Shown here: positions 16,880-20,719 of the stretch, in pieces | How positions within the stretch are numbered: the stretch's first letter is position 1 | Layout: every line of letters starts with the position of its first letter | Source: an uncultured Clostridia bacterium | GTDB taxonomy: Bacteria; Bacillota; Clostridia; Oscillospirales; CAG-272 | Direction: 5' to 3' | Length of the DNA stretch: 33,830 nucleotides | NCBI GenBank assembly: GCA_947632285.1 | Contig: CANROT010000010.1 | Location: 1 to 33,830 of the forward strand | Translations under genes and position numbers: made by a program | The notes under the pieces: generated by a model | The model's input: only the letters and a program-made list of their open reading frames with translations | Databases searched by the model: none | Told to the model about the DNA's origin: nothing

Positions 16880-18490
16880 CTACTTTTTATATCTTATAAA
16901 TATTATCGGCGTCTTTCCGATCTCGACATGCCACGGCATGAGGTTTTTTTCCGCTATCGCGAAAAGCTGCGCCTTTTCATATGCGCCGAGCGCGCCGACG
17001 TGCTCGTAATATTTATATGCGTCCACATGCTTTGGAACGAGGTTTCTGTGCTTGTCCGCGAGCTGTGCGAGCTCGCCGCACAGCAGCGGACTGAGCGCAG
17101 ACTTGACCGCCTCTTTCGCGGGCTGCCAGTGCGCGAACCATTCGTCAAACGTCATGTACGGGACGTCGAGCACAGCTTTCCCGTTCGCGTCACGGCGGAG
17201 AATGTGAAGTTTCTCGAAATAGCCGGCATTTTCGTACAGCGCCGCGTTGTGCGGTTTCACACCGTCAACGAGGAAAGACACGTAAAACCGCGCGATGTCC
17301 TCTATTTTGGCAGCAGTATCAAGACGGTCGTATACCCAGTGCGTATCGCCGAACGCGGACTGATAATCGGAGACGTTCGCGACGCCGTCCGAGAGGTTTA
17401 TACGGCAGGGTCCCGAGCTGTCGTATTTTCCGAGCTTCTCGTCCGGCTCAAAAACAGTCGCCGTCGCGAGCCAGCGGCCGCCGTTCGGGCGCTCGGGCGG
17501 CTCTATGTTCCGGGCGTCGGGAGCTATGCTCGCGCTGACGGTGAGCTCCGTAAGTATCTCATTCATAAAAAGCAGCAAAAGCGTCGCCTTCTGTTTGTCC
17601 GTCATCGCCGCAAATTCCGGCCTGTCCCAAAGCGGCTGTGTGCCGCGCCTCACGGCCTCCCATACATCTGCGGCAAGTCTGTCCGCGAGCGATTCCTGTG
17701 CCGCTATGTCGCCGAATTCGTCACTGTGCTTTCGCATGAAACAGCGCGTGTAATAGAGACCGCCGTCAGTGCGCCCCATCAGCTCGCCCGCGACGAGCCT
17801 GTCGGCGAGCGGCTCGATATACGCCGTCGGTATCCCCATCGCGTCGGCGATACCGACGGCGGAGATCGGTTTTTCATACGCCGCAATCAGGATATTTCCC
17901 TCGATCTTCGAGTTCAAAAGCGAGAACGGCTCGCCTTTATAGCTGTCGCTGCCCCAGATCCCGACGCTGACCGTCTTCGGCTCGTAGCTGATCCTGTCGT
18001 ATTTTTCCATCTTCTTCATGCCCTCTCTGATACGGCTCCGCGCGCCCGAGAGCCGTGACTTCACCGTCCCGACCGGGACGCCGAGATCGTGTGCGATCTT
18101 CTCGACGGATCCCCCGTCGATATAGTACCTGACCGCGACCTCGCGGTAGATGCGGACGAGCCTGCCAAGCTCGCGCCGAACGGCGGCATATTCTTCATCT
18201 CTGCCGTCTATGTCGTCCGTGCTGTCAAAGACTTCCTCTGCCTCCGTCCCGAAATATACGATCCTGTCGCGGTACTTTTGCCTCAGCCAGCCGTTGTAGA
18301 GGTTTTTCATGACCGTCGAAAGAAACCCCTTCGGAGACTCGACCGCCTCGCCACGCCATTCCCTCTCGACGAGCGCCATGACGGTGTCCTGTATAAGTGC
18401 CTCGGTGTCGGGGTGGTCCGCATACTTGTGCGACGCAAGCTCACAGCAGTATAAAAGATATTCTTTATACCTGCGCTCGGTGTCGTTCAT
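16880..18490 (-). CDS. ECF-like sigma factor with long C-terminal extension
   Basis: This 536-residue protein has sigma-70 region 2 at about 1-75 ('ALIQDTVMALVE', 'FLSTVMKNLYNGWLRQKYR') and region 4 at about 105-160 ('REVAVRYYIDGGSVEKIAHDLGVPVGTVKSRLSGARSR'). A winged-helix-like segment at about 198-252 ('PISAVGIADAMGIPTAYIEPLADRLV') and about 280 further residues with no recognised domain follow. ECF factors are normally near 180 residues. AAAGGAG before the ATG at 18490 fixes the start; the track start at 18646 has no such support. No anti-sigma gene is adjacent, so the extension may sense a signal. Its targets are unknown. Confidence 0.83.
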   Translation of the reverse strand: MNDTERRYKEYLLYCCELASHKYADHPDTEALIQDTVMALVEREWRGEAVESPKGFLSTVMKNLYNGWLRQKYRDRIVYFGTEAEEVFDSTDDIDGRDEEYAAVRRELGRLVRIYREVAVRYYIDGGSVEKIAHDLGVPVGTVKSRLSGARSRIREGMKKMEKYDRISYEPKTVSVGIWGSDSYKGEPFSLLNSKIEGNILIAAYEKPISAVGIADAMGIPTAYIEPLADRLVAGELMGRTDGGLYYTRCFMRKHSDEFGDIAAQESLADRLAADVWEAVRRGTQPLWDRPEFAAMTDKQKATLLLLFMNEILTELTVSASIAPDARNIEPPERPNGGRWLATATVFEPDEKLGKYDSSGPCRINLSDGVANVSDYQSAFGDTHWVYDRLDTAAKIEDIARFYVSFLVDGVKPHNAALYENAGYFEKLHILRRDANGKAVLDVPYMTFDEWFAHWQPAKEAVKSALSPLLCGELAQLADKHRNLVPKHVDAYKYYEHVGALGAYEKAQLFAIAEKNLMPWHVEIGKTPIIFIRYKK

Positions 18491-18640: not shown

Positions 18641-18703
18641 AAGCAATAAAAAGTTTTGCAGAGGGGGCGTGGGGGAGTGACTTTTTCAAAAGTCACTCCC
18701 CCA
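18641..18703. repeat. hairpin repeat element, copy 2
   Basis: A lead-in 'agcaataaaaagttttg' and a G-rich spacer precede a perfect 17-bp inverted repeat (18668-18684 and 18687-18703) with a 2-nt centre and the same ctttttcaaaag core as copy 1. On the minus strand it directly follows the SUFU/DUF2185 gene, so it could help end that transcript. The rest of 18491-18715 shows no other gene. Confidence 0.75.
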
Positions 18704-18715
18704 CAAGTTTTTATA

Positions 18716-20659
18716 TCAATCCTCATCGAACCTGTAGTAGCTGCCGTCGTCGCCGCGCTCGTAGCAGGCGCCGTAGGGCGCGTCGAGCAGGTCGACGATG
18801 TGCGAGTCATAGTTGCAGACGGTGTTCAGGTCGTAGACGGCGAATTTGTCGTCTATGTCGGAGTCGTCACCGCCGTCGACGTATTCGTCGTACTCGTCGG
18901 CGGTCATGATGCGCCAGCCGCTGTCCCACCCGCGGTCGGCGGGCTCGGGTATCTCGCGGCAGATGACGCCGACCGGCTCGCCGTCTATGATGATGCGGTC
19001 GGTCGCGAGGCAGCCGCGCGGCCCCGTGAAGTTCGGGAGCATGTCGACGAGCTCGTCCTTGCTTATATACGGGTCGCCCTCCGGCTCCTCCGTCCCCGCG
19101 AGCCACTGTGAAAAGCGCGCCTCCATGACCTTTGCCATCGCGCGGTAGTAGTGCTCGCCCCAGCGCAGATAGAGGTATCTGTCGCCGCCCTTCGGCGGGC
19201 GGCCGAACAGCCGCTTTGAGAACGTATCCTCCGCGTATGCCTCAAGGTCGCGCATATAAGAGTGAGAATCGTCCTCGCCGATGTAGTACCACTTCGTAAA
19301 GTCGACGCCGTCGCAGTTGAAGAAGGGCAGCGTCAGAACGCCGCGGCAGCGCTCGTCGTCCCGGATAAAGAGGCGCAGGTCAAAGCCGTAGTGCTGCTCG
19401 AGCACGGCGGCCTCGATGTCCGGACACGCGTCGAGAAAGATGTCGCTCATCAGGTCGTGCTCGATGCAGAAACGCAGATATGCGGCCATGTGGCTGTATG
19501 CGGAGAGCTCATCGACGGGGAGACTGTTTTTCCTTATTTTTTCAATATGCGTCCGCGCGTCGTCAACGATGAGCCCGTACCCGACCTCGTCCCCGTCGCG
19601 GTCGACGACCGCGGGACGCGAAACGTCAACGACCGAGAGCATCTTGTCCGAAAGAAGGTCGAGCAGCGCGTCGGCATCGTTTTTCAGCTTATATTTGATT
19701 TCGGATGGGTAGAGCGGGACGAGCTGATAGAAATTGACCTCGTCGCCGGAGGGCAGGCGGCACGCGGCGGCCTCCTTGCCGTATGCGCCGGGCGTGACGA
19801 GCATGACGCCGGAAAATCCGACGCTCTTGTCGTATGTCCCCATGTTGTCGGCGGTCGCCGAAACGGTGTGCCCCCAGCCGAGCCACGTTTCGTTTTCTAT
19901 CGGCAGGCGCGCCACGTCCTTCAGGAGCCGGATCGGCCAATAGAGCGCCTCCCCGCCGGCGCCGGACATGCACGAAGCGATGTCCCAATCGGGCGGGAGC
20001 GATATCATGAGCTCGGCCCTGCCGAACGTCTCGGGGACGACGTCGTCCGGTACGTCCATTCTGTGCGCGCCCATGCCGAGCGTCACGAGCGTATAGCAGT
20101 CGTGCCCCTCGCACGGCGGTATGACGCAGATGTCAAGGCGGACGTCCGGCGAGCAGATCTCGCGCAGCACGCTTTTATAGCTGCCGAAATTTTCCTTTAT
20201 GTGCTCCTCGACTGCTGAAAGCTCGTCGTCTGTATATACCTCGGTCGGCTTGATCCCGTCAATGCGGCCGCGGCAGACGGAGAGCATCACCTCGACCGTG
20301 CGGCCGCCTATCTGTTCGCCGCCCGCGCCGCCGTTCACGGCGCGCAGAAGATATCCCGCCGCCTCATCGTATTTTTCAAAGAAGAACAGCACCGCTCCGA
20401 AAACGGAGAGCCACAAAACGTCGTTTTGTCCATCTGTGCCGACCTCGTCGAGCAGAGAGGCGGCGCGCAGGAGCATGTCGCGGTCCGCCGGAGACTGCGA
20501 CGACGCAAAGTCACAGTACGCGCGCGCGAGCTCGACCGTCATACGGAAAGTGCGCTTTCCGTCCGGGACTGCCTCGATGATGCCGATGATCATTCCGAAC
20601 TCTCCCGCCTCGCGCAGCCGGCCGAGTCTTTCGAAAAATTCGCCGTCGGTCACGTTCAT
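18716..20659 (-). CDS. multidomain protein: TPR-like region, SUFU domain, unknown domain, DUF2185
   Basis: The 647-residue protein has four parts. Residues about 1-140 are helical and TPR-like ('EKYDEAAGYLLRAV'). Residues about 150-345 look like a suppressor-of-fused (SUFU) domain ('YTLVTLGMGAHRMDVP', 'AELMISLPPDWDI'). Residues about 385-535 are an unrecognised Tyr/Trp-rich region ('AYLRFCIEHDLMSD'). Residues about 546-640 match DUF2185 ('GCLATDRIIIDG', 'DSGWRIMTADEYDEY', 'LNTVCNYD', 'LDAPYG'). SUFU and DUF2185 domains are known from immunity proteins of polymorphic toxin systems. No signal peptide is seen, so it is cytosolic. GGGGGAGGAAC precedes the ATG. No toxin is adjacent. Domain calls are from recalled family patterns. 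Confidence 0.8.
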   Translation of the reverse strand: MNVTDGEFFERLGRLREAGEFGMIIGIIEAVPDGKRTFRMTVELARAYCDFASSQSPADRDMLLRAASLLDEVGTDGQNDVLWLSVFGAVLFFFEKYDEAAGYLLRAVNGGAGGEQIGGRTVEVMLSVCRGRIDGIKPTEVYTDDELSAVEEHIKENFGSYKSVLREICSPDVRLDICVIPPCEGHDCYTLVTLGMGAHRMDVPDDVVPETFGRAELMISLPPDWDIASCMSGAGGEALYWPIRLLKDVARLPIENETWLGWGHTVSATADNMGTYDKSVGFSGVMLVTPGAYGKEAAACRLPSGDEVNFYQLVPLYPSEIKYKLKNDADALLDLLSDKMLSVVDVSRPAVVDRDGDEVGYGLIVDDARTHIEKIRKNSLPVDELSAYSHMAAYLRFCIEHDLMSDIFLDACPDIEAAVLEQHYGFDLRLFIRDDERCRGVLTLPFFNCDGVDFTKWYYIGEDDSHSYMRDLEAYAEDTFSKRLFGRPPKGGDRYLYLRWGEHYYRAMAKVMEARFSQWLAGTEEPEGDPYISKDELVDMLPNFTGPRGCLATDRIIIDGEPVGVICREIPEPADRGWDSGWRIMTADEYDEYVDGGDDSDIDDKFAVYDLNTVCNYDSHIVDLLDAPYGACYERGDDGSYYRFDED

Positions 20660-20690: not shown

Positions 20691-20719
20691 AGTATATCAC
20701 GCCCGGGCGAATAAGTCAA
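20691..20719 (-). promoter_or_regulatory. sigma-A-type promoter of the SUFU/DUF2185 gene
   Basis: On the minus strand TTGACT (20719-20714) and TATACT (20696-20691) have a 17-bp spacer, about 32 bp before the start codon. Confidence 0.75.

Follow-up and report, generated by a model that had tools for sequence, protein, structure and literature searches.

Gene and domain architecture

The window (the whole stretch of DNA analysed, 33,830 nucleotides of contig CANROT010000010.1 from an uncultured Clostridia bacterium) carries on its minus strand, at 18716–20659, a gene for a protein of 647 amino acids with an ATG start, and the listing of open reading frames confirmed this gene as it had been drawn in a first-pass annotation made from the DNA sequence alone. 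The gene is supported by its open reading frame, Pfam matches, orthologues and dN/dS values below 1 in every domain; the encoded protein, hereafter the polyimmunity protein, has a TPR-like region followed by SUFU, DUF7832 and Imm33 domains.

The first-pass annotation had read the protein as a fusion of TPR, SUFU, an uncharacterised and unclassified central domain, and DUF2185, and had called for HMM searches of the separate segments. These searches placed SUFU and DUF2185 both well over the curated Pfam cut-offs: the SUFU domain (PF05076; residues 173–349; 19613–20143, minus strand) scored 150.6 bits against a cut-off of 25 (E 5e-44), and DUF2185, whose current name is Imm33 (PF09951; residues 550–644; 18728–19012, minus strand), scored 82.7 bits against 25.4 (E 2e-23), so that one chain holds at least two recognised immunity domains. 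The central segment proved to belong to DUF7832, a named Pfam family of unknown function (PF25191; residues 365–478; 19226–19567, minus strand; 74.7 bits against a cut-off of 27, E 9e-21), and is mostly alpha-helical. Imm-SuFu membership follows from the profile match together with the SUFU fold, and Imm33 membership from the profile match; the Imm33 part was poorly modelled (pLDDT about 40–60), which counts against the polyimmunity reading. An NCBIfam search of the protein assigned no family.

Residues 1–140 (20240–20659, minus strand) gave no significant TPR match in Pfam. In the structural model it forms paired helices, at fair to high confidence; homologues of the protein matched TPR_2, TPR_14 and TPR_19, and solved TPR proteins were hit, down to E 7e-9, when the family alignment was searched as a profile. 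The N-terminus can accordingly be retained as TPR-like.

Transcription signals and the neighbouring sigma factor

A sigma-A type promoter sequence (TTGACT-N17-TATACT) is located ahead of the polyimmunity gene at 20691–20719 on the minus strand, and is kept in all three genus members that have the gene. On the other side, in the gap before the sigma factor gene, is a bidirectional terminator-type hairpin at 18669–18704 (16 pairs; -31 kcal/mol, z -7.9), accompanied by T-runs. Because the gene has its own promoter and a strong hairpin 3' of it, it reads from these signals as a single-gene unit. The hairpin is a near-perfect GGGGGAGTGACTTT, and a second, almost identical copy occurs elsewhere in the same genome (G000:C57:11350-11382).

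The gene at 16880–18490 on the minus strand encodes an ECF-like sigma factor (536 amino acids from the ATG at 18490) whose C-terminus carries a long extension. The first-pass annotation had joined it with the multi-domain protein as the best candidate for an undescribed system. Such a system would be a regulatory conflict in which the extended sigma factor controls, or is controlled by, the multi-domain protein. In both the window and the genus member G116, the two genes are neighbours that run in the same direction; however, the strong terminator between them is present in both genomes, and in G231 the ABC transporter gene comes directly after the polyimmunity gene with no sigma match at the locus. 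Members of the sigma factor family occurred in 166 of the 246 genomes sampled from the taxonomic family, often in several copies and nearly always without a polyimmunity gene, compared with 6 of 246 that gave any match to the polyimmunity protein. A sigma-controlled system is thereby largely contradicted already and we consider it extremely improbable. The sigma factor was judged to lie outside the unit because of the terminator, its absence at the G231 locus, and the spread of its family in genomes without a polyimmunity gene; since co-occurrence is not conserved, the locus is not classed as a sigma-factor-linked system, and nothing but their being neighbours in two closely related species links the genes.

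Relatives and genomic surroundings

Within the genus, orthologues of the protein were found in G116 (87% identity) and G231 (70% identity), and the gene was missing from two of the five members examined (G159 and G199). In all three pairwise comparisons dN/dS was below 1 for each of the four parts of the protein (range 0.03–0.48), and the gene is under purifying selection. Comparison of the gene in the window with that in G116 (L017:14449-16398) gave a synonymous divergence of 0.88 at its 5' end but of 0.11 at the Imm33 end, a fall suggestive of recent recombination in the 3' part. In G159, where the gene is missing, spoIIGA and the ABC transporter gene are instead separated by a DUF1015 gene and an ORF of 174 amino acids (L134:3405-5449).

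In a sample of 246 genomes from the family, just 6 gave any match to the protein, counting partial ones, so the gene is patchy in this family. Across the order, SUFU proteins occurred in 43 of 394 genomes, many as frames of 1000 to 1885 amino acids, and these long relatives mix TPR, SUFU, DUF7832, Imm33, Imm68, SUKH, DUF4261, DUF4253 and DUF6891 in varying sets; the genes beside them include Imm32, Imm-NTF2, DUF6547, DUF4241, DUF5071 and DUF4261, plus ordinary genes. The order SUFU-DUF7832-Imm33 is common to Subdoligranulum variabile, G554 and G442 (the last with a shorter N-terminus). The S. variabile homologue (OY725843.1) is colinear with the window protein over its full length at 33% identity, and differs in setting: its gene is carried on a circular record of 76 kb, with genes for SUKH-3, ankyrin, DUF6138 and DUF1963 proteins close by. 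Relatives of the window protein have other immunity genes nearby or are themselves longer strings of such domains. A phage collection yielded a single weak SUFU match. In G055, a genome of the same family as the window, two proteins of ~1500 amino acids on separate contigs (L013:9389-13948 and L016:5658-10073) carry complementary sets of immunity-type domains, one being TPR-SUFU-DUF7832-DUF4253 and the other Imm68-Imm33-SUKH-DUF4261.

The genome-wide toxin search covered LXG, WXG100 and RHS. Neither an LXG nor a WXG100 protein was matched in this genome, with a working B. subtilis positive control, and the locus is accordingly not an LXG/T7SS locus; RHS was not matched in this genome, G116 or G231. 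None of 15 genomes with relatives had an LXG match above the cut-off, and among the Pfam families listed for the two ORFs flanking each of 22 relatives on both sides, no toxin family was recognised. The genome thus yielded no cognate toxin from the LXG, WXG100 or RHS families, and this counts against the polyimmunity reading. So do the neighbours of the gene in the window, namely spoIIGA, sigE, the sigma factor, the ABC transporter and an aspartokinase-type gene, which belong to sporulation and metabolism and not to immunity; the earlier statement that no toxin stands beside the gene was correct among the genes checked.

These surroundings bear upon a different explanation, that of a domesticated cellular protein whose immunity-type domains were recruited for binding an endogenous partner, perhaps in sporulation or stress. 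SUFU binds Gli in animals. The position of the gene beside spoIIGA/sigE is stable in three species and the gene is under purifying selection, both of which favour domestication, as do a window free of toxin or immunity neighbours and a genome in which LXG, WXG100 and RHS were not detected. However, transcription of the gene runs away from spoIIGA, it has the patchy distribution described above for both genus and family, and its full-length S. variabile homologue is encoded within an array of immunity genes. Domestication is, on balance, unlikely.

SUFU, DUF7832 and the proposed immunity function

DUF7832 was located directly behind SUFU, in the same orientation and with a gap of 25 to 133 bases, in 24 of its 26 matches in the 394 genomes of the order; of the remaining two, one was a fragment at the edge of a contig and the other lay in a frame containing a stop. 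The SUFU-DUF7832 block aligned end to end with distant relatives at about 35–44% identity. DUF7832 is better regarded as a fixed, almost obligate partner of SUFU than as a free domain. The modelled block (pLDDT 81, pTM 0.56) was matched by Foldseek to the N-terminal domain of human SUFU (1m1l) and to the Neisseria protein 3k5j, with E of about 2e-6 to 3e-6, in alignments spanning about 220–240 columns, roughly the length of the SUFU part itself; the Foldseek search gave no PDB match for DUF7832 outside the SUFU part. The idea that DUF7832 is the bacterial counterpart of the C-terminal domain of animal SUFU was unsupported, Foldseek having aligned mainly the SUFU part. Animal SUFU grips its ligand between two lobes. 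It is possible, and we suggest it tentatively, that DUF7832 is an unrecognised immunity domain forming the obligate second lobe of bacterial SUFU, with a C-terminal fold unlike that of animal SUFU, where it might widen or fix the range of toxins bound. No mention of DUF7832 was found in the literature searched, and the near-obligate pairing with SUFU is a first functional context for this family.

The pairing could also be taken to favour an immunity protein of single specificity, wherein either the SUFU-DUF7832 unit or Imm33 alone meets toxins and the rest of the chain is structural, as DUF7832 acts as an obligate companion of SUFU and not as a free domain. Against this, SUFU and Imm33 were each found without the other in related proteins and plasmid records, a sign that either may be able to function by itself, and we regard a single specificity as very unlikely.

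Chains that string several immunity domains together were described as polyimmunity proteins by Zhang et al. 2012 (PMC3482391), who listed SUKH, SuFu, Imm33, Imm34 and Imm66-69 as their commonest domains, noted fusions to TPR or ankyrin repeats with up to ten domains in Firmicutes, found their operons usually without toxin genes, and gave HNH/EndoVII nucleases as one class of toxin paired with SuFu and likewise with Imm33. The window protein resembles these in joining SuFu and Imm33 in one chain with a TPR-like fusion, in coming from Firmicutes, and in having no adjacent toxin gene; judged from its neighbours, promoter and terminator, no toxin gene or cassette shares its operon. It differs in being shorter, with two named immunity domains as opposed to up to 10, in holding DUF7832, and in being encoded alone and not in a small immunity operon. 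Neither the window nor the two genus relatives had an immunity gene adjoining the polyimmunity gene, such an operon being usual but not required. The domains, architecture, relatives and neighbours of the relatives all fit published polyimmunity proteins, which supports the multi-immunity part of the first-pass reading; the suggestion of an undescribed class or system was not borne out, as proteins with the same fusions were described in 2012. By its sequence features the window protein is a polyimmunity protein, and because multi-antidote proteins of this kind were already described in 2012, the find is real but ordinary.

With fair assurance, we propose a standalone polyimmunity protein as the product of the gene, one that would neutralise delivered toxins via SUFU and/or Imm33. 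Going by its domain families, the protein is likely to be expressed from its own housekeeping-type promoter and to wait in the cytoplasm, its TPR-like N-terminal arm likely serving as a scaffold that bears the SUFU-DUF7832 module and the C-terminal Imm33. If a rival cell delivered a polymorphic toxin, with an HNH/EndoVII-type nuclease as the likeliest kind, SUFU and/or Imm33 would bind the catalytic domain of the toxin and so block it. In Neisseria, where some of the MafI immunity proteins contain SUFU domains, direct binding was demonstrated for one MafI (PMC4287609), and by analogy direct binding is the most likely mode for the window protein. The N. gonorrhoeae SUFU homologue 3k5j and the SUFU-type MafI share domain family and fold with the window protein, but they are small and without other domains, and the maf immunity genes are directly behind the MafB toxin gene (PMC4287609). 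The animal Suppressor of fused (1m1l, 4bl8) shares the N-terminal SUFU fold; it differs in that its C-terminal domain was not matched by DUF7832, and there is no Hedgehog pathway here.

These results assign a polyimmunity protein to a lineage of rabbit-gut-type Clostridia where the secreted toxin families searched for (LXG, WXG100 and RHS) were not found, which fits the idea that some gut bacteria hold antidotes to the toxins of other bacteria.
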